From an uncultured Alphaproteobacteria bacterium (lineage in GTDB: Bacteria > Pseudomonadota > Alphaproteobacteria > RF32 > CAG-239): a stretch of 39,453 bases of DNA. Below are positions 3 to 39,427 of this stretch, piece by piece. Both the position numbers and the translations under genes were made by a program. The DNA is taken from NCBI GenBank assembly GCA_944389095.1, contig CALXLC010000016.1, positions 1 to 39,453 of the forward strand, written 5' to 3'. Positions within the stretch are counted from its first letter, which is position 1; each line of letters begins with the position of its first letter. Below the pieces are notes generated by a model. That model was not told the origin of the DNA. It ran no database searches and saw only the letters and a list, made by a program, of their open reading frames with translations.

Positions 3-1322
3 GCCGGCTGGCAGGAAACGCCGTGTTCGGATCCGGATTTGCAAAGCGGCAAAGAAGACAACGGCTGCGGAGGGTATTACTACCAGTGTATGAGCACGGG
101 GGAATACTGTGAAAGCAAAGGGTTCAAAAAACAGGAATGCGAGGCCGGGGAAGAAGCCACGGTCTGCGACAAAGACAGCAGTTACAAGACATGTGCCTGT
201 GTTCCGCTGAGTGACGAGAGCAACTGCAGCTGGGGCACCAAGAACTGCGACAATGCCTGCGGCGGCACGCGAAGCTGCTGCAAAACCGCAGCCGAATATT
301 GCATGGAAAAAGGGTTCAAACAGCAAACCTGTTCATCCACGGATATTGTCACAAAGTGTGAGGCCGACGGCAGTTATGTCCAGTGCGGAGACAATCCTGA
401 TTGTCGGGTGACGCCGGTTACGGTTCCGGCAAACGGTTATTGTTCCACTACCAACAGCTGCAACATCTGCACGGATTGGAAATGTAATACTAATTACTAT
501 CAGGACGGCAACAGCTGTAAACATAATGACTGCAAGGTGACGCCGGTCAGGGTTCCTGCAAATGCGGTTTGCTCAAATACCAACAGCTGCGATATCTGTA
601 CCGGTTGGGAGTGTCGCAGCGGCTACGCGGATACGGAAAGCCACTGGTGCAGTGTTCCGGAGACAACGGACTGCGGCGAGTTGGGATACAACAAGACCGA
701 AGATGAATGCGAAGGATTGGATATGCTTAAATGTCCCTTTGATATGAGTCACGTCTGGTGTGAGGATGTTCCTGTCGAACCGGAACCCGGTATGATTTTA
801 TACTCCGACGGAACTGTGTCATTGGATGTTATTTCCGGCAAAACCCCCGTCGGCGTAGTGGCCTATGTCGATGAGACCAGAAGGTTTGCCGTGGCGCTGG
901 AAGAAACAATAAGACAATGGGGCGGTTATGGTTCTAACGTCTCATGTTTAACAAATATGAGTGCCTCGCAAGCTCAATCAGATTTTAATGGTGCAGCAAA
1001 TACACAATGTTTGATAAATGACAGTCAATCACATCCGGCGGCAGAGTATTGTAATACTTATAAACCGGTTTCGAGTGGAACAGGATCCAACGGATGGTAT
1101 TTACCGGCAGGAGGAGAGTTAACTGTAATGAGTTTTAGCTATGGGGCTATTAATTTAGGACTTCAAAAATTGTCGAAGACGCAACTTAGCAGCAATTGGT
1201 ACTGGTCTTCGTCCGAGGGCAATAACTATTACGCCGGGTACGTCAGACCGTCCGGCGGCCTTATGAACGCCAGCAGCGCTAAGAATAACTATAACCGCGT
1301 TCGTTGTGTCCTCGCTTTTTAG
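3..1322 (+). CDS. Secreted Cys-rich protein with C-terminal DUF1566/C-lectin-like domain (5' partial)
   Basis: The frame is open to the window edge, so the true start lies upstream. What is visible is about 440 residues. The N-terminal two-thirds is Cys-rich and repetitive: two modules with spaced cysteines around EYC-x-x-KGFK (near 95-400), then two modules of the type DC-[RK]-VTPV-x-VPAN ending in an SC (near 400-650), then a GY-NKTEDEC...KCPFD module. The C-terminal part (from about 790) runs ILYSDGT...WYLPAGGEL...YWSSSE...VRCVLAF, matching the DUF1566/Fib_succ_major type of C-type-lectin-like fold. It is probably an exported surface or adhesion protein; the signal peptide would lie outside the window. 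Its 3' end looks like a DGR variable region (see findings). A paralogue begins 29 bp downstream. Confidence 0.8.
   Translation, partial: AGWQETPCSDPDLQSGKEDNGCGGYYYQCMSTGEYCESKGFKKQECEAGEEATVCDKDSSYKTCACVPLSDESNCSWGTKNCDNACGGTRSCCKTAAEYCMEKGFKQQTCSSTDIVTKCEADGSYVQCGDNPDCRVTPVTVPANGYCSTTNSCNICTDWKCNTNYYQDGNSCKHNDCKVTPVRVPANAVCSNTNSCDICTGWECRSGYADTESHWCSVPETTDCGELGYNKTEDECEGLDMLKCPFDMSHVWCEDVPVEPEPGMILYSDGTVSLDVISGKTPVGVVAYVDETRRFAVALEETIRQWGGYGSNVSCLTNMSASQAQSDFNGAANTQCLINDSQSHPAAEYCNTYKPVSSGTGSNGWYLPAGGELTVMSFSYGAINLGLQKLSKTQLSSNWYWSSSEGNNYYAGYVRPSGGLMNASSAKNNYNRVRCVLAF
1200..1312 (+). other. Candidate DGR variable region (VR1)
   Basis: Flanks at 1200-1217 and 1293-1312 are identical, base for base, to the flanks of the equivalent region of the gene at 38660-39427 (complement of 38768-38785 and 38670-38689). 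The 75-bp core between them differs strongly from the other copy. From codon 12 of the core onward the differing codons keep the same third base (C or T) while positions 1 and 2 vary, as expected when AAC/AAT codons of a template repeat undergo adenine mutagenesis. No template repeat or reverse transcriptase was seen in the window. Confidence 0.6.
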
Positions 1323-1351: not shown

Positions 1352-2101
1352 ATGAGAAAGTTGAATAAATTACTGGCCGGAGTATCGGTTGCGGTGTTGG
1401 CCTCGTTTCAGGCGCAGGCGACCTGTGTCCCGGCAGACTGCAACGCCATGGGCTACACCAAATCCGCTTCCGACTGCGACGGCAGCGATATGATTAAATG
1501 CCCTTTTGACACTGATAAAGTCTGGTGTACGGAAGGAAGCGACGTTTCAACAATGGCTCCGGCTATAGGAGCTATATATTATTCCGACGGAACATTCTCA
1601 ACAGAACTTAATCCAAAGAAAAATGCCGTCGGCATCGTTGCGTATATGAATGGAAATCGGAGACTTGTTATCGCATTTGATGAACAATCCAAATTATGGG
1701 GCGGTTATGCCGTAAATGAAGCTTGTCTGACGGATTACGGCAGTTCTGACAACGCCAAGACAGATTTTAACGGCCTGATGAACACATTATGTTTGGTAAA
1801 CGCAGGCAATCGCCCTGCTGCAGAATATTGCAATTCTTACAAACCTGTTTCAAGCGGTGCGGGAAGCATAGGCTGGTATTTGCCGGCTGCCGGTGAATTA
1901 AACGGAATCAGTTCTAATTACAACGCAATCAACTCAGCGCTTCAAAAATTATCAAAAACAAAACTCAGCACCGACTATTATTGGACCTCGTCCGAAATAG
2001 ATCTCGGAACCTCCTGGTATGCAAAATTCGCAACCGGCGATGTCCACTATAGTGATGGAAAAAATCAGAGCCACCTCACTCGCTGCGTCCTTGCGTTTTA
2101 G
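1352..2101 (+). CDS. Secreted Cys-module protein with DUF1566-like C-terminal domain
   Basis: A 249-residue protein. The ATG at 1352 is chosen because AGGAG stands at 1340-1344 and because it is followed at once by a signal peptide (MRKLNK, hydrophobic LLAGVSVAVLASF, AQA cleavage before TC). A short Cys module (GYTKSASDCDG...KCPFD...WC) precedes a DUF1566-like domain with WYLPAAGEL and YWTSSE and the family ending RCVLAF. It is a paralogue of the flanking upstream gene and of the gene at 38660-39427, but lacks the long N-terminal Cys repeats of the former. Its C-terminal region also has many NNY codons but is clearly more diverged than the other two. It is probably an exported, surface-exposed protein; the ligand is unknown. 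Confidence 0.8.
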   Translation: MRKLNKLLAGVSVAVLASFQAQATCVPADCNAMGYTKSASDCDGSDMIKCPFDTDKVWCTEGSDVSTMAPAIGAIYYSDGTFSTELNPKKNAVGIVAYMNGNRRLVIAFDEQSKLWGGYAVNEACLTDYGSSDNAKTDFNGLMNTLCLVNAGNRPAAEYCNSYKPVSSGAGSIGWYLPAAGELNGISSNYNAINSALQKLSKTKLSTDYYWTSSEIDLGTSWYAKFATGDVHYSDGKNQSHLTRCVLAF

Positions 2102-3550: not shown

Positions 3551-3577
3551 TTATAATCTCTTGCAAAAAGATTATAA
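3551..3577. promoter_or_regulatory. Inverted repeat in the hisS-fliI intergenic region
   Basis: Perfect 9-bp arms TTATAATCT (3551-3559) and AGATTATAA (3569-3577) with a 9-nt centre lie about 50 bp upstream of fliI. This could be an operator for the flagellar operon or a weak hairpin. A TATAAT-like box lies in the left arm, but I see no convincing -35 partner. Confidence 0.35.
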
Positions 3578-3625
3578 AGCATTACAAATGTATTATTGTT
3601 TCTATAAATTGATGAGAGTTTGGGC

Positions 3626-4966
3626 GTGTCCGATTATACCGACAATATTCTGCAGGAGATTTCAAAGCTGGACGAAGCTTCTTATTACGGCTGCGTGACC
3701 GGGGTGCAGGGCTTGTTTATCGAAGCCGGGGGTATTCTGGCCAAGTTGGCCGTGGGTGACCGCTGCAACGTGATTGCCGCCGGCGGCAAAGTCGTGCCCT
3801 GCGAGGTGGTCAGCTTTAAGGACAACAAACTGCTTTTGATGCCTTACGGCTCGGTTGACGGCATCGGACCGGGCTGCCGGGTGGAAGTGGAAAACGCCCG
3901 GCCGGTGATTTATCCGCATCCGTCGTGGCTGGGACGCATCATCAACGCGTTCGGCGAGGCCATTGACGGCAAAGGCCCCCTTATTAAGGGCAACACGCCG
4001 TATCTGATAAAATCTTCGCCGCCTCCGGCGCAATTCCGCGACCGGGTCAAGGGCAAGGTTGACCTCGGTGTTAAGGCCGTCAACACCTTTTTGACGATTT
4101 GCAAGGGGCAACGTATGGGGATTTTTGCCGGTTCCGGCGTCGGCAAATCGACCCTGATGTCGATGATGGCGCGGCAAACCGACTCCGATGTGTCGGTTAT
4201 CGGGCTTATCGGTGAACGCGGGCGCGAGGCCAAGGAATTTGTGGAAGACGTGCTGGGGGAAGAAGGTTTGGCCAAATCAGTGCTGGTGCTGGCGACGTCC
4301 GACGAAAGTCCCCTGCTCCGCCGTCAGGCCGCTTATGTGACGATGGCCGTCGCAGAGTTTTTCCGCGACCAGAACAAGGATGTGCTCTGCATGATGGACT
4401 CGATTACCCGTTTTGCCATGGCGCAACGCGAAATTGCCCTGTCCGTGGGAGAACCGCCTGCCTCGAAAGGCTATACGCCGAGTGTGTTTGCCGAACTTCC
4501 CCGCCTGCTGGAGCGGGCCGGCCCCGGCGCCGGAAACGGTACAATTACCGGGTTGTTTACGGTTTTGGTGGACGGTGACGACCATAACGAGCCCGTGGCC
4601 GATGCCGTGCGCTCGATTTTGGACGGCCATATCGTTCTGGACCGAAGCATTGCAGAACGAAACCGCTATCCGGCAATCAATATCCTGCGCTCCGTTTCGC
4701 GTACCATGCCCGACTGCGACACCAAGGAAGAATATGCCCTGGTGGCTAAAGCGCGCAAATATATTTCCGCCTATGAGGATATGGCTGAGCTTATCCGACT
4801 CGGAGCTTATAAAAAAGGCTCCAACCGCGAAGTGGACGAGGCTATTTTCTATTACCCCAAAATTGAGGAATTTTTGGCGCAGGGCAAGCAGGAACGTTTT
4901 ACGCTGCCCGAGTGTTATGACCTTTTGGGCAAGATTCTGGCACAGCCCTACACCCCGGCCGGATAA
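3626..4966 (+). CDS. fliI: Flagellar export ATPase FliI
   Basis: A 446-residue F1-beta-like ATPase that energises export of flagellar rod, hook and filament subunits at the cytoplasmic face of the basal body. It has an N-terminal beta-barrel domain, Walker A GSGVGKST at about residues 169-176, Walker B around VLCMMDSITRFAMAQRE, and the family segment SVFAELPRLLERAG. The GTG at 3626 is preferred because GAGAG sits 7 bp upstream; a TTG at 3620 in the same frame is also possible. fliJ begins 14 bp after the stop. Only fliI and fliJ of the export apparatus are in the window, so the flagellar genes are dispersed. The Walker motifs leave no doubt about the ATPase family; FliI rather than a type III secretion homologue is supported by fliJ and the nearby motAB. 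Confidence 0.93.
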   Translation: MSDYTDNILQEISKLDEASYYGCVTGVQGLFIEAGGILAKLAVGDRCNVIAAGGKVVPCEVVSFKDNKLLLMPYGSVDGIGPGCRVEVENARPVIYPHPSWLGRIINAFGEAIDGKGPLIKGNTPYLIKSSPPPAQFRDRVKGKVDLGVKAVNTFLTICKGQRMGIFAGSGVGKSTLMSMMARQTDSDVSVIGLIGERGREAKEFVEDVLGEEGLAKSVLVLATSDESPLLRRQAAYVTMAVAEFFRDQNKDVLCMMDSITRFAMAQREIALSVGEPPASKGYTPSVFAELPRLLERAGPGAGNGTITGLFTVLVDGDDHNEPVADAVRSILDGHIVLDRSIAERNRYPAINILRSVSRTMPDCDTKEEYALVAKARKYISAYEDMAELIRLGAYKKGSNREVDEAIFYYPKIEEFLAQGKQERFTLPECYDLLGKILAQPYTPAG

Positions 4967-8950: not shown

Positions 8951-9219
8951 CAGATACGGATTTTTATCTGTGTTTAGTGTCCTTGCGGCACGGGGCTTTC
9001 AACGGCTCTATCCACATCGGCGTTAGGATATAACGTCGTCAAATTGTTATCTGTTTCACACGGATAATGATGAATATATCCCCGATTCATAGCAATATGG
9101 TCGGGGAGCTTTTAGCGTATACAAGAGGAGTCTGCCGACTTTAAAGGCTAAAAGAATCATTTATGTGGATATGATTGTTGAACTCTCCGGCCACCTGCAA
9201 AGGTGGTTTTGTTTTTATT
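8951..9219 (+). ncRNA. Highly structured RNA or cis-regulatory leader upstream of the autotransporter
   Basis: This about 270-nt stretch has no gene but contains six consecutive hairpins: CAGATA/TATCTG (8951-8970), CGGCGTTA/TAACGTCG (9018-9038), TTATCTG/CGGATAA (9047-9067), TCCCCGA/TCGGGGA (9079-9107), CTTTTAGC/GCTAAAAG (9109-9154), and CCACC/GGTGG (9191-9206) followed by TTTTGTTTTTATT. The last is a terminator placed 34 bp before the autotransporter ATG. This is either a riboswitch or attenuator controlling the autotransporter, or a stand-alone small RNA. I could not match it to tmRNA, RNase P RNA, 6S RNA or a familiar riboswitch consensus. Confidence 0.45.
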
Positions 9220-9252
9220 AACGTGAAAAAAACAAAAGGAAAGTTAGATCAT

Positions 9253-12200
9253 ATGAGAAACAAACTTTTATTTTCAACCGCATTGGTCGCCGCCGCTTTT
9301 GCCGCGTCTGACGTTCTGGCGGAAAATGTTTATACGGAATATGAGGCGGGTTCTGTGATTACGGAAAATGACCTTGGTCATGAAGCCGGAAACAACAGAA
9401 TTTCTTTTTTAGGAGACGCTTCGCTGGCAAATGACGTCACAATGGGTAATTTTGTGACACTGCAAAATCAGACCAAATTAACCGGCGACAAGAAACTGAC
9501 CGTTATGGGGTATCTGACGCAAACTGCTGCAGGTTCGGATATTTCGGGCGTTGACCTTGAAATACAAAAAGGCACGGTATATCCTAATGATAATCCTGCC
9601 GGCGACGGTGATGATACCGTTAACGAAGGCGAATTGGTTTTAGGAAGCGATTTGACCGTCGGAAACGTTACCATGGCCGACGGAACCGGCATCTTTCTTT
9701 TTAAAGGTGATGATTCTGCAAATAACGGCATAAATAAAATCCTGACCATTGCAGAAGGCAAAACGCTCAATTTTGTTGATGAAAACTATATTAAGGGCTC
9801 AGAGGGTGCCACTCTGGCAATTGAAGGAGACGGTACCGTCGTCAACAACGGTAATCTGAATATTCAATCCCAATTGAGCAGCGAAGCCAAACTTGTCAAT
9901 AACGGAGAAATTGCCGTTAATGCCCAAACGACATTAAACGGCGGATATGAATCCGACGGCGGGTATATGGGCAATGAAACAGCCGACAGCACAATTAATT
10001 TGGCCGGAGACATTATTCTTAAAAACAATGCCCGAATTGTTGCCGCTACGGCTGACGATAAGGGAACCGTTTCGATTTCTGACGCTCAAAATATTACGCT
10101 GACCAACGGGTCGACCATTGACGCGGTTAACCTGACAATCACCGGCGACGAGGAAAACAAAACCCAAATTTCTATCAGCGGCAATAATCCTGATGCCGGG
10201 CGTGGTGAAGGCGAAGACAACTGGCGCAATAATTCCTATATTTTGGGTTATGGCGTCAGCAGCATTTCCAATGCCGAAATTTCCATCGGAGACGGCGGCC
10301 ATTTGATTCAGGGCGCAAAAGGAACCTCCGAAGAACCGGTACCCGGAACGATGACGCTGGCCAACAGTACGGTTGACATTGCTTCCGGCGGTATGATGAA
10401 GTCCACCAACGGCTCCGACTTTGAACTCAACAACACCACCATTAATCTGGAAGGACGGATTGAAGGGACGATAAAAACTGCGGCGGCTCAGGGACTGTCC
10501 GAGGGTGATGAAGAAAATACGCCAAAGAGCGTTATCAATGTTGACAAGTCCGATGCTTATATTGATGAAATCGAAAGTCTGGATGAATTGAATATCAATG
10601 CGGACACGTCGACGCAACGTTTGTTAGGGGCAGATTCGACTGTTACCGATATGAACATTGCGGCAGGCAAGACCTTTACGCTGGACACCCCGGAGGAAGA
10701 CGGCACGGCTGTCAAGCTGACCGCAACTAATGTTAATGTTGACGGCACACTGGTTGTCGGCAACGGTGCCGAAGACCCCACAAATTATGATATTGAGAAT
10801 ACCACCGTCAACAACGGCGGAACGCTCGACCTCGGCACCAATAAATATGCCAGCAACGTTACCCTGAACGAAGGATCTACGTTGGCCATCGGCGTTGCCA
10901 ATGATGAAGGCGGCGAAGATATTACCAACGGCTCAATTGCCAGCGGAAATTCCCTGACAGTTGCAGGTGCATCCAAACTGGCCGTCATCATTGCCGATGA
11001 TGTTGAGTTGGGCGAAGAGGGTTCCGCTCTTGAGTTGCAAGACAATATTAAGAACGCACTGGCAGCTGAGGAAAGCAAGCTGACTTTGGTCGACAACTTT
11101 ATGTATGATTTGTCCGTTGATGAAAACGGTGGAATTACCGCGGCCAAAGAAGACGCCTCCGGCATTGCGTCCAATATGACCGCCGCCGGCGCTTCCGCCA
11201 ATGCGGCCGGTACCGCCGCGGCTTTTGCTCTGGCTGACGGACTGACCGGACAAGGACAGGCCATTCATGATGCTTTGAGCAACAGCATGCAGTCCGGCAA
11301 CGCTTCTGCCGCCGCCAAACTGGCCGAAGATGTCGCTCCGTCTGCGGCTCCCGTTGTTCAGACGGTTGAAACCGGCCTGCTCAATCAGGCTTATGATGCC
11401 GTTTCCTCCCAGCTGAGCGGCGGAACCGTGGCTGCAACCTCCGAAGGCAAAGCCTCCGGTGACGGTGCCTTCAGCAAGGCTGCGGCCTGGGTACGCACCC
11501 TGTTTAACAAAACCGAAATCGACGATACTTCCAAGGCTAAAGGCTTTGATGCCGAAACAACCGGCATTGCCCTGGGCTTCCATAAAGAAGTGGCGGACAA
11601 TGTCAAAGCAGGTATCGCTTACGCTTACGGCGACACCGATATTGACGGCTCCAGCCGCGATACCGATGTTGAATCGCATACCTTTATGCTTTACGGCGAA
11701 TATAAACCGAGCAATTGGTATGTTAACGGTATTGCCTCTTACGGCATGTCCGATTATGACGAGAAAAAACATACTTCCGTCGGCACCATCGACGGCAGCT
11801 ATGATGTGGAAACTTACGGCTTGCAGGCCATGACCGGCTACGAAATGAACGTCGGCGGTTATAACCTCACGCCGGAAGCAGGCTTGCGCTATGCACATAT
11901 CAAACAGGATTCTTACAGAGATTCCGCCGGTCAGAGAATCAGTGCGGATGATCAGGATATCCTGACCGGTATCGCCGGCGTTAAAGCCAACAAAGACTTC
12001 GCCCTCGACAACGGCACCATTCTCCGTCCCGAAGTCCGTCTGGCCATGACCTATGACCTGATGGACGGCGACAACACCGCCATTGTCAACGTCGGCGGGT
12101 CTTCGTACAGAATCAATGGCGAAGAACTTGACCGCTTCGGCATTGAGGCCGGTGCCGGTGTAACCGCAGAACTGAATGATAACTGGGATGTCACGGCAGG

Positions 12201-12270
12201 TTATCAGGGAAAATTCCGCTCGGATTACACCGATCACACCGGTTTGTTAAGCGCTAAATACAAATTTTAG
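9253..12270 (+). CDS. Type V autotransporter with repetitive passenger domain
   Basis: A 1005-residue outer-membrane autotransporter. The ATG at 9253 (AAAGGAAAG upstream) starts a signal peptide, MRNKLLFSTALVAAAFAASD with cleavage after VLA; the frame extends upstream through the terminator but that part is not coding-like. The passenger (about 25-730) is Asn/Gly/Thr/Asp-rich with repeated short beta-strand patterns (NNG, GTL, ITLTNGSTI), typical of a right-handed beta-helix adhesin. From about residue 735 a classic beta-barrel translocator begins (AWVRTLFNKTE...GIALGF...), with alternating strands to the terminal aromatic KYKF. It probably displays the passenger on the cell surface. No protease triad or RGD-type motif was seen. 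Its expression may depend on the structured leader. Confidence 0.9.
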   Translation: MRNKLLFSTALVAAAFAASDVLAENVYTEYEAGSVITENDLGHEAGNNRISFLGDASLANDVTMGNFVTLQNQTKLTGDKKLTVMGYLTQTAAGSDISGVDLEIQKGTVYPNDNPAGDGDDTVNEGELVLGSDLTVGNVTMADGTGIFLFKGDDSANNGINKILTIAEGKTLNFVDENYIKGSEGATLAIEGDGTVVNNGNLNIQSQLSSEAKLVNNGEIAVNAQTTLNGGYESDGGYMGNETADSTINLAGDIILKNNARIVAATADDKGTVSISDAQNITLTNGSTIDAVNLTITGDEENKTQISISGNNPDAGRGEGEDNWRNNSYILGYGVSSISNAEISIGDGGHLIQGAKGTSEEPVPGTMTLANSTVDIASGGMMKSTNGSDFELNNTTINLEGRIEGTIKTAAAQGLSEGDEENTPKSVINVDKSDAYIDEIESLDELNINADTSTQRLLGADSTVTDMNIAAGKTFTLDTPEEDGTAVKLTATNVNVDGTLVVGNGAEDPTNYDIENTTVNNGGTLDLGTNKYASNVTLNEGSTLAIGVANDEGGEDITNGSIASGNSLTVAGASKLAVIIADDVELGEEGSALELQDNIKNALAAEESKLTLVDNFMYDLSVDENGGITAAKEDASGIASNMTAAGASANAAGTAAAFALADGLTGQGQAIHDALSNSMQSGNASAAAKLAEDVAPSAAPVVQTVETGLLNQAYDAVSSQLSGGTVAATSEGKASGDGAFSKAAAWVRTLFNKTEIDDTSKAKGFDAETTGIALGFHKEVADNVKAGIAYAYGDTDIDGSSRDTDVESHTFMLYGEYKPSNWYVNGIASYGMSDYDEKKHTSVGTIDGSYDVETYGLQAMTGYEMNVGGYNLTPEAGLRYAHIKQDSYRDSAGQRISADDQDILTGIAGVKANKDFALDNGTILRPEVRLAMTYDLMDGDNTAIVNVGGSSYRINGEELDRFGIEAGAGVTAELNDNWDVTAGYQGKFRSDYTDHTGLLSAKYKF

Positions 12271-25890: not shown

Positions 25891-26529
25891 TTATAAAATG
25901 CTGCTGCGGTCTTGGAGAGCCTTTTGTTTTGGTGAGGCCGCGTGTTTTTCCAAAAATTGATATATCGTAAAAATACTAACGCCCATCCGGCGGGCAATCT
26001 GGGTTTTGGGCGTTCCGTTTTTCGCAAGGTTTAAAACTTCCTCCTCTTTGCCGTCCAAAATATGCCGTTTGTTTTTGCTTCCGGTTTTTCGCCCAAGCTT
26101 GCGGCCTCCGGCTTTGAGACGCTGCAGAGCCTCCCTCGTCCGCTGACTGATAAGGTTACGCTCAATTTCTGCGGCCAGGCCGAATGCAAATGCCAGCACC
26201 TTACTTTGAATATCCGCGCCCAACCTGTAGTTATCTTTTATGGTCCAAACCTGAGCGCCTTTTTGCATGCAGATATTCAAAATTGTCATAATTTGCAGCA
26301 AGTTGCGCCCAAGGCGGGAAATTTCTGAACTGATTAAAACATCTCCCGGTTTCAGGCGCCTGAGAAGTTTGCCGAGCTTACGTTTTTCAAAATCCTGGGT
26401 GCCGCTGATTGTTTCCGTAATCCACCGGTTTATTTGCAAATTTTCACGTTCACAAAATTTTTTGATTTCAAATTTCTGATTTTCCAATGTTTGTTTATCC
26501 GTGCTGACTCTGAGATATCCGTAAATCAC
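25891..26529 (-). CDS. Serine recombinase / DNA invertase
   Basis: A 212-residue resolvase/invertase-family protein. The catalytic serine is in GYLRVSTDKQ (Ser9). ISSEISRLGRN carries the conserved arginine, and AAEIERNLISQRTREAL is the long E-helix. A C-terminal helix-turn-helix (KTQIARRMGVSIFTIYQFL) binds the crossover site. The start is GTG at 26529 with AAGGAAC upstream. Size and architecture match Pin/Hin-type invertases. The nearby inverted repeats suggest that it flips the segment at 25760-25887. A 9-bp copy of part of the repeat (GTTCCTTTG, 26536-26544) also covers its own SD region. Confidence 0.88.
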   Translation of the reverse strand: MIYGYLRVSTDKQTLENQKFEIKKFCERENLQINRWITETISGTQDFEKRKLGKLLRRLKPGDVLISSEISRLGRNLLQIMTILNICMQKGAQVWTIKDNYRLGADIQSKVLAFAFGLAAEIERNLISQRTREALQRLKAGGRKLGRKTGSKNKRHILDGKEEEVLNLAKNGTPKTQIARRMGVSIFTIYQFLEKHAASPKQKALQDRSSIL

Positions 26530-36331: not shown

Positions 36332-36340
36332 ATGGGCGTT

Positions 36341-37669
36341 ATGAAAAAATTATTCGGCTGTTTTTGTTTTGCTCTGTTGATGTCATTATTCGGTCTGAGC
36401 AGTAAACCTATTTTTGCTTCGGCGCATACCCCTCCTCTTATTAAAAATTCATTGTCGTTATCCGCTGAATCCCACTCTTCATTTCAGGTTGCGGGAATAT
36501 ACTGGCTTCCGGATTATCTGAAAGACAACACGTCCCGGGACTATAATACCGACGGCGACAATGAGGATCCCGGCGGCGGGGATGTTATTCCTTCAGATCC
36601 TATAAATCCAGATGAGAGCCGTTGCAGCATTTACGGATTTCAAACCCCTGATTCGGTCGATACATCTTTATACAGCTGTACAACGGTCTATCCGATTACC
36701 GGACTGCCCTGCTATAAAGATTGTGTCTGCAAATCCGATTTTAAATATACCGAGGAAAATTGTCTCGCCAGCGCCGGTAAAAAACTTTCCGGCCGCAATT
36801 GTAACGGCAAATATGAAAATTGTGTCTGTAAACAGACTGTGACCGTCAGCACAGGCGAGAAGTGTGACCTGTATTGCGAAAACGCCTGTGTTGAAAAAAG
36901 CTGCAAGCCTTCGGTAAGTTTGGGAACCGGTGAGGAATGTTCCGAACACTGCGCGTCAAGCTCCGGCACTTGCACGGCAAAAAAATGTAAAGCCTCCGTA
37001 AGTTATAACACCAGCAAAGGAGAATACTGCGCTGAAAAATGCGCTTCAAATTCCGGCGTCTGCACCAAGAAGGGTTGCAATAAAATCTGCAAAGATAAGT
37101 TTACCGGCAGTGCCCCGACCAATGGTTATATTACGACGGAAAACTGTTCCGACTGTTCCGGCTCTTACACTATCAAAACCGGCTGGGCTTGCAACTCCGG
37201 TTATCATAAATCCGGAAGTTCTTGCATCGCAGACTGCACCCGCACCTGCTATGACAGTTATACGGGAAGTCTCCCGGCAAATGCCCAATACACCACAAAA
37301 AGCTGTTCCGACTGCTCCGGTTCTTACACTATCAAAACCGGCTGGTCTTGCAAGTCCGGTTATACAAAGTCAGGAAACAGCTGTGTCTGCGCCACAACCT
37401 GTAAAGACAAGGTAACCACCAAACCTGCGAACTCCTACTTTGTTAGAGTTAATTGTTACGCCTGTGGTGTTTCAAAAACAATTAATGACCGATGGGAGTG
37501 TGATTCTGGTTATAAAAAATCTGGAACCAGTTGTGTATCAACTTGTACCGGTGGTGCAATCACGCTATGTACAGCAACTTATTGCGTAAAATATGCCCAA
37601 GGAAGCAGCTGTTGGAATGCATGTTATCATCAATGTAATCAGAACTGTACATTTGACGGAAACTGCTAA
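36341..37669 (+). CDS. Secreted Cys-rich repeat protein
   Basis: A 442-residue protein. The ATG at 36341 (GAGG 9 nt upstream) is preferred to an in-frame ATG 3 codons earlier that touches the SD. A signal peptide (MKKLFGCFCFALLMSLFGLSS) is followed by a linker and then many cysteines in repeated units. Three units carry SVS-x-x-TGEYC/EEC...CAS-SG-CT-KKC (about 185-250). Three units carry CSDCSGSYTIKTGW-C-SGY-KSG-SC (about 255-400). It resembles the N-terminal Cys modules of the gene at 3-1322 and, in pattern, EGF/granulin-like disulfide repeats. It is probably surface-exposed or released; the function is unknown. Confidence 0.8.
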   Translation: MKKLFGCFCFALLMSLFGLSSKPIFASAHTPPLIKNSLSLSAESHSSFQVAGIYWLPDYLKDNTSRDYNTDGDNEDPGGGDVIPSDPINPDESRCSIYGFQTPDSVDTSLYSCTTVYPITGLPCYKDCVCKSDFKYTEENCLASAGKKLSGRNCNGKYENCVCKQTVTVSTGEKCDLYCENACVEKSCKPSVSLGTGEECSEHCASSSGTCTAKKCKASVSYNTSKGEYCAEKCASNSGVCTKKGCNKICKDKFTGSAPTNGYITTENCSDCSGSYTIKTGWACNSGYHKSGSSCIADCTRTCYDSYTGSLPANAQYTTKSCSDCSGSYTIKTGWSCKSGYTKSGNSCVCATTCKDKVTTKPANSYFVRVNCYACGVSKTINDRWECDSGYKKSGTSCVSTCTGGAITLCTATYCVKYAQGSSCWNACYHQCNQNCTFDGNC

Positions 37670-38519: not shown

Positions 38520-38614
38520 CGGACTTTTCTTGCTTTTGACAACAAAAGCGAAGTAATCGGGCGTTGCGAAGAAAGTTCTGCTTGTTTATACAGTCAATTA
38601 TATAAAGATGAATG

Positions 38615-38649
38615 AAAAATCCCCGGAAGCTGATATTCCGGGGATTTTT
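38615..38649. terminator. Bidirectional terminator between ctrA and the DUF1566-like gene
   Basis: Perfect 14-bp arms AAAAATCCCCGGAA (38615-38628) and TTCCGGGGATTTTT (38636-38649) with a 7-nt loop. Confidence 0.85.
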
Positions 38650-38659
38650 GTGTGCCTGA

Positions 38660-39427
38660 TTAAAACGCAAGGACACAACGAACGCGGTTACTGCTATTCT
38701 CATTGTCGTCGTGGCTCATACTGCTGTCGGACGGACGCACAACCCACGCGTAGTCGCCGTAATCGTACTCGGACGAAGACCAGTAGTAAGGATTGTAAAT
38801 ATCACTGCTAAGCTGCGTCTTAGATAATCTTTGAAGCGTTGAGTTGATAGCTTCAAAATTAAAGCTCATCATAACTAGTTCTCCGGCAGCAGGAAGGTAC
38901 CAACCACTTGCCCCTGTACCGCTTGAAACCGGCTTATAAGTATTACAGTATTCGGCAGCTGGGTGCGGTATATTGTCATTTATTAAACACTGCGTGTTTA
39001 ATGCTCCGTTAAAATCAAATTGGGTGACTGAACTAACCATATTTCCTACACACCAAACATCATGATCATCAGCTCCCCAACTTTTCGTTGTCTCCTCCAG
39101 TGCTACGGCAAGCCTCGTCGAACCTGCGACATAGGCGACGATGCCGACGGGAGTTTTGCCGGAGACGACGTTTTCGGACACCGTTCCGTCGGAATAAAGA
39201 ATCATGCCCGGCGCGGCATTAGCCAGTGACCCGGCGACATCCACGCAGTAATATTTGGACTTGTCAAACGGACACAGCAGGCTTTCCATTCCCTCACAAT
39301 CCGAAGCCGACTTGGTATAGCCGAGTTCTTCGCAGGATGGCGGCGTTACGCAGGTCTGCGCCCATGCCCCCGAAATCATCAGCAGACTGCCGCTTACGGC
39401 TGCGGCGGCCAATATTTCTTTTTTCAT
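38660..39427 (-). CDS. Secreted DUF1566/C-lectin-like protein with candidate DGR variable region
   Basis: A 255-residue protein. AAGGAGAAAGACG precedes the ATG at 39427. It has a signal peptide (MKKEILAAAAVSGSLLMISG, cleaved after AWA), then the same short Cys module as in the gene at 1352 (ELGYTKSASDCEG...LLCPFD...YYCVD), then the C-terminal domain with ILYSDGT, FDFNGALNTQCLIND, WYLPAAGEL, YYWSSSE and the ending VRCVLAF. It is the closest paralogue of the partial gene at 3-1322: much of the body differs at silent positions, but the sequences bordering the C-terminal variable core are identical. It probably has a surface-exposed ligand-binding role. Confidence 0.85.
   Translation of the reverse strand: MKKEILAAAAVSGSLLMISGAWAQTCVTPPSCEELGYTKSASDCEGMESLLCPFDKSKYYCVDVAGSLANAAPGMILYSDGTVSENVVSGKTPVGIVAYVAGSTRLAVALEETTKSWGADDHDVWCVGNMVSSVTQFDFNGALNTQCLINDNIPHPAAEYCNTYKPVSSGTGASGWYLPAAGELVMMSFNFEAINSTLQRLSKTQLSSDIYNPYYWSSSEYDYGDYAWVVRPSDSSMSHDDNENSSNRVRCVLAF
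38670..38785 (-). other. Candidate DGR variable region (VR2)
   Basis: Counterpart of 1200-1312. The 18-bp flank (38768-38785) and 20-bp flank (38670-38689) are identical to VR1; the 78-bp core between (38690-38767) is rich in NNC and NNT codons (TAC GAT TAC GGC GAC TAC, then GAC AGC AGT, AGC CAC GAC GAC AAT, AGC AGT), with one codon more than VR1. Confidence 0.6.

Follow-up and report, generated by a model that had tools for sequence, protein, structure and literature searches.

Two genes at opposite ends of a 39,453-base window, which is the whole of contig C16 from a genome of 1,554,758 bases in 60 contigs, carry towards their 3' ends a divergent core set between identical flanks. The question raised by this locus is whether these cores are variable repeats (VRs) of a DGR and, if so, where its template and reverse transcriptase (RT) reside. 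The window contains three related genes (A, B and C), with the following features:

3-1322, plus strand: target gene A, an ORF truncated at its 5' end by the contig edge
1203-1319, plus strand: VR A, at the 3' end of gene A (template TR2, on contig C14)
1200-1217, plus strand: 5' invariant flank of VR A, TACTGGTCTTCGTCCGAG, identical in VR C
1293-1319, plus strand: 3' invariant flank of VR A, IMH-like, including CGCGTTCGTTGTGTCCTCGCT and equal to TR1-3 up to GCT
1352-2101, plus strand: paralogue B, without a VR signature; static counterpart and internal control
38660-39427, minus strand: target gene C, an ORF
38661-38782, minus strand: VR C of gene C, best fitted by a TR3/TR2 mosaic

Gene A is composed of a Cys-rich region followed by a C-terminal Lcl_C/DUF1566-like domain that contains VR A, and gene C of a signal-peptide-like N terminus, a Cys-rich segment and a C-terminal CLec-like domain that contains VR C. 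As originally reported, the 18 and 20 bases at 1200-1217 and 1293-1312 (the latter being AACCGCGTTCGTTGTGTCCT) recur on the minus strand at 38785-38768 and 38689-38670, and the core between them spans 25 codons in gene A and 26 in gene C. The aligned codon pairs with a common third base that had been listed were also present, far beyond chance. Within the 5' flank of VR A, GGTCTTCGTCCGAG is common to the three template repeats (TR1, TR2 and TR3) described below, and beyond the GCT of the 3' flank the VR and TR sequences part. As to the inverted repeat that a DGR may carry just 3' of a VR, a strong one was seen by eye after VR C (~38614-38650), in a reading that did not cover every VR, and may be a mere terminator.

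The original prediction expected an RT and an A-rich template elsewhere in the genome and would have been refuted by their absence; both are present on contig C14, together with the two flanks of the window, and the refuting condition was not met. Only one RVT_1 gene was found in the genome, and it lies in a minus-strand cassette (C14:28000-36000) ordered as a target gene with a VR, an Avd-like ORF, three TRs and the RT:

C14 31773-31655, minus strand: TR1, A-rich and AAC/AAT-rich
C14 31505-31387, minus strand: TR2, A-rich and AAC/AAT-rich
C14 31241-31120, minus strand: TR3, A-rich and AAC/AAT-rich
C14:29805-31067, minus strand: RT, RVT_1, full length, 421 aa

The closest solved structure to the RT was 8ub7 (E=4.6e-35), which we take to be the RT of the BPP-1 DGR, and the motifs LPIGNLSSQ and YVDD were recognised by eye from the sequence; its assignment as a DGR-type RT rests on this match and these motifs, without a phylogeny. 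The Avd-like ORF (130 aa, 5' of the TRs) matched Pfam bAvd PF22296 at 8.5e-18 with 65 bits against a cut-off of 40, and scored 59 bits against NCBIfam DivGenRetAVD NF033474, below the cut-off of 80. Neighbouring genes resembled, by eye, alaS and the end of ligA, suggesting that the cassette occupies a chromosomal rather than a prophage locus, and the exact TR pattern had no match among IMG/VR viral contigs, thus giving no sign of a phage version. Rfam yielded nothing credible at the cassette, only two matches at chance level.

Comparison of the window with these templates showed that VR A has the same length and codon register as TR2 and differs from it at 15 of 39 A positions versus 1 of 74 non-A positions (Fisher p=1.7e-7). 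VR C differed from TR3 alone at 16/37 A and 4/79 non-A positions (p=1.5e-6) and from a TR3>TR2 mosaic at 16/39 A and 1/77 non-A positions; it is one of several VRs for which a two-TR mosaic gave the better fit, and is best explained as a putative mosaic of the 5' half of TR3 and the 3' half of TR2. The proposed origin of the codon pairs was upheld, with a refinement: the adenine-specific pattern stands against the real template, whereas the pairs GGC/GAC and GGC/AGC reflect a template GAC GGC and not AAY codons.

Overall, the 22 VRs pooled showed mismatches at 366 of 816 A positions (45%) in comparison to 80 of 1685 non-A positions (4.7%), an odds ratio of 16, and all three templates were used, the best template being TR3 for 11 VRs, TR2 for seven and TR1 for four. 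As the best of three TRs was taken for each VR and the VRs are paralogous, the pooled p-value overstates independence; the adenine bias holds nonetheless, given the size of the effect and the control provided by the static paralogue. Three VRs had zero non-A mismatches, and several had 7-8, so that age or decay is possible for some targets. The VRs end adjacent to the stop codon, and at the 3' junction a common ...CTCGCT is followed by TTTTAG in the VR and by CTTGGAAATAAA in the TR. By sequence this junction meets the DGR criterion of an IMH in the VR versus an IMH* in the TR, although functional data for its role are lacking. Many contigs of this genome end in or near target genes (C16, C14, C15, C24, C40, C47, C56 and C57), so the count of at least 22 VRs is likely a lower bound, with targets probably undercounted in this assembly.

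Among congeners, RT matches were found in 8 of 35 genomes. The RT of one of these (G032; record CASFLC010000131.1) was 98% identical to the C14 RT, and its 13 VRs, each compared with the best TR from either genome, differed at 240/529 A versus 71/1024 non-A positions. In the clearest pair of orthologues (L018/L086) the flanks were 95% and 95% identical and the VR 69%; other pairs were less clean, with upstream parts that had diverged too. Paralogue B and its congener orthologue were identical at 728 of 762 positions, including 121 of 125 in the region equivalent to the VR. The VR-limited divergence of orthologues combined with a static B indicates that variation between congeners is, on these alignments, concentrated in the VR, in agreement with the original interpretation. 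Most VRs of two further genomes (G074 and G066) were unmatched by TRs in their own genomes, making TR loss or assembly gaps likely. Many VR-like 3' ends among the G074 targets L154-L170 have a common core, GCGTGGTACTGG...GCGTCTTC, that no array TR fits, which suggests that their templates are lost or unassembled.

These comparisons bear on two other explanations of the window. Ordinary paralogous divergence or recombination within a lectin-like family, with no retroelement involved, would agree with the genes being paralogues, with the tendency of contigs to break there and with the differences of B from A and C, which show no DGR pattern. It leaves unexplained, however, why differences to a noncoding template should be adenine-specific with an odds ratio of 16, why RT and Avd adjoin the templates, and why B is static and the VRs hypervariable in the same congener comparison. 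We regard this explanation as effectively refuted by the TR-VR pattern and scarcely tenable. A second possibility is that the DGR formerly worked and that its VRs are now frozen relics, as could be read from the 7-8 non-A mismatches of several VRs and from the many congeners without an RT match. Such degeneration appears improbable in view of a full-length RT (421 aa) that is 98% identical to that of G032, the three VRs free of non-A mismatches, orthologous VRs that differ between congeners, and the leader and closing helix of the RNA (described below), whose pairing persists across double changes.

The variable region had been assigned to a lectin-fold DUF1566 host, and our analysis agreed. 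The C-terminal domains of A, B and C are all Lcl_C (the former DUF1566), with B scoring at the Pfam cut-off and A (29.4 bits versus a cut-off of 34.9) and C slightly below it. An AlphaFold2 model of protein C, built from 11 sequences and of moderate confidence (pLDDT 67.8), gave 4EPS as its top fold match (4.6e-5) and a weak match to the Legionella Lcl C-terminal domain 8q4e; an earlier study tied 4EPS to DUF1566 DGR targets and to TvpA (PMC4159848). As modelled, the VR sits at the 3' end of a target with a CLec-type fold, meeting that criterion for a DGR target, and secretion of the targets is inferred from the N terminus only. Other genes of the window include one for a 445-aa Cys-rich, repetitive, secreted-looking protein ~1 kb from gene C (36332-37669, plus strand), for which no Pfam match was found, and one for a large autotransporter (9175-12270, plus strand; beta-domain PF03797, 5.7e-53). 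A serine resolvase/invertase gene (25891-26529, minus strand; PF00239) lies beside a surface-glycan-like cluster at ~15.3-25.6 kb and is possibly a phase-variation switch.

Relatives found via the RT also carried tandem template units, four in Azospirillum sp. CAG:239 (FR885508), seven in JAUNPO010000050, three in CALXTR010000022 and two in CALXUE010000017, and the remaining relatives had one unit each. Every unit has the same type of 5' leader, composed of two hairpins and followed by the TR. Across 23 leaders, 94.5% of hairpin pair cells were standard and double changes occurred in 14 of 24 pairs, a level of pairing reached by 0/500 shuffles. A covariance model of the leader had matches in 23 of the 152 genomes of the family, eight of which contain arrays of 2-7 units, and in most of the non-training genomes inspected an A-rich TR lay directly 3' of the match. 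A scan of 385 genomes of the class under stricter filters gave one genome outside the family with a match. Leader matches were also observed off-array or scattered (G127 C72, G062 C185, G095 C3/C9/C22 and G032 C43), suggesting dispersed template units that act in trans.

Folding of whole units revealed pairing of the stretch between the hairpins with the tail that immediately follows the TR; in nearly every true unit the best partner began at the same GCT. In 27 distinct units, 96.5% of the pairs in this closing helix were standard and 56 double-change cells were counted, in comparison to a mean of 13.9 and a maximum of 29 for shuffled tails (0/1000) and to 10-15 for slid registers, which retain the relatedness that shuffles lose. 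From this we conclude that every TR forms, as predicted from sequence, an RNA unit of its own that the leader-tail helix closes. Binding of RT-Avd to the leader is an inference, with no binding or RNA data behind it.

An alternative that opposes only this RNA-architecture part of our explanation is that the template RNA is organised as in BPP-1, so that the tandem leaders are a duplicated spacer serving the preceding TR from its 3' side. BPP-1 itself has a structured spacer 3' of its TR (PMC12875486), and each internal array TR does precede the leader of the next unit. In single-TR relatives, however, the leader precedes the TR on its 5' side, and only ~35-90 nt, without visible conservation, lie between the last TR and the RT start; a BPP-1-style structured spacer 3' of the TR is thus not evident, the conserved structure being 5' of each TR. 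No leader was found 3' of the last TR in the arrays inspected, and the closing helix joins each leader to the tail of the TR that it precedes, with own-tail pairing better than pairing to other tails in four arrays (G066, G097, G074 and the present genome, G000) and equal in two (G071 and G068). A BPP-1-like arrangement therefore seems unlikely to us, if still worth bearing in mind, and individually closed, leader-first units remain the preferred architecture. In the open-access literature, which cannot prove absence and which gives tandem or multiple TRs brief mentions only, we found no account of template units that stand in tandem, each with its own scaffold. Membership of the DGRs is well supported, and the novelty lies in the template-RNA architecture.

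The units themselves may also change. On contig C132 of G032, two leader-TR units (3563-3667 and 3935-4039; locus L092) lie beside a VR gene, and no RT was found on that contig, the sole RT match of G032 being on C131. Compared with TRa, TRb differs at 11/28 A and 5/82 non-A positions, and in the reverse direction at 0/19 A and 12/91 non-A positions, which is the asymmetry of an apparent adenine-biased derivative of TRa and not of the reverse; the adjoining VR differs from TRa at 9/28 A and 0/82 non-A positions. A weaker asymmetry of the same kind was seen for unit 1 of G097 (13/30 A and 8/77 non-A; reverse 3/23 and 15/84). These adenine-biased copies suggest that the machinery which rewrites targets can also act on templates, although two cases are no proof. 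TR unit 2 of G066 was considered as a mutated copy of a neighbour and rejected, as mismatches at 23-32 of 51-63 A positions were accompanied by 11-16 non-A mismatches and the pattern was not clean. The wider notion that the arrays are evolving template libraries, in which the retroelement now and then rewrites its autonomous, scaffolded template units, the arrays acquire diversified TRs and targets sample templates and mosaics, is offered tentatively and at somewhat less than even odds.

In summary, we assign a probability of about 95% to the reading that both window loci are VRs of a chromosomal DGR with its core on C14. What the sequence itself establishes is the RT, Avd, three TRs, the adenine-specific differences between TR and VR, the use of all TRs, the covariation in leader and closing helix and the VR-limited divergence of congeners. 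As we infer, transcription would place each TR in an RNA that has a two-hairpin leader of its own on the 5' side, and the helix between leader and 3' tail would close the unit around the TR. RT with Avd, by an inferred binding to the leader and inferred cDNA priming, would copy the TR to cDNA, misincorporating opposite adenines. The mutated cDNA would then replace the homologous 3' end of a target via the common TGGTCTTCGTCCGAG and CGCGTTCGTTGTGTCCTCGCT flanks. The expected outcome, in no fewer than 22 genes, is a randomised patch on the C-type-lectin-like domain (Lcl_C/DUF1566) of a protein inferred to be secreted, for which surface display and ligand binding are likewise inferred. Current activity is inferred from sequence, without reads, RNA, transcript or population data.

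In the usual description of a DGR, a single template writes into one gene or a small number of genes. In this 1.55 Mb genome a repertoire of at least 22 genes of surface type is served by one RT through several interchangeable templates, which in scale is nearer to antigen variation or a receptor repertoire. The 5' leader and the closing helix, both covarying, mark out a template unit that is portable; this provides a direct handle on how template RNAs of DGRs other than BPP-1 are recognised, and might be used to design programmable hypermutation from several templates simultaneously. If templates are indeed rewritten, the directionality of DGRs (TR to VR only) would not be absolute.

Among known systems, the DGR of Bordetella phage BPP-1 (bRT-Avd-TR-Mtd) resembles the present one in RT homology, the presence of Avd, the order target-avd-TR-RT, an adenine-specific VR and a C-terminal CLec target. 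The present system differs in that it is chromosomal, has three TRs and serves 22 or more targets; its structured RNA, closed by a leader-tail helix, precedes each TR, in comparison to a structured spacer 3' of the TR in BPP-1 (PMC12875486). The Treponema denticola TvpA DGR likewise has a single RT for as many as seven CLec targets dispersed over the chromosome (PMC4891356), but has one TR per genome in contrast to the three TRs and at least 22 targets found here. In human-microbiome DGRs, DUF1566 is the commonest target domain and 4EPS the structural reference (PMC4159848); the Lcl_C targets and 4EPS fold match are shared, and the portion of the source available describes no multi-template arrangement. 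Cyanobacterial DGRs also have remote dispersed targets and CLec paralogues beside variable ones (PMC7517822), yet in the available sections of that report the targets are mostly predicted to be cytosolic and multidomain and tandem template arrays are not described. Multi-VR DGRs have a single TR in 216 of 271 cases and more in the rest, as given in a survey that includes Stenotrophomonas sp. SKA14, with two TRs, six VRs and DUF1566 targets (PMC6642488). SKA14 thus shares with our system both the DUF1566 targets and the use of more than one TR, but structured tandem units are not described for it in the available part of that survey, whereas arrays of up to seven units are found repeatedly within one family in the present analysis.
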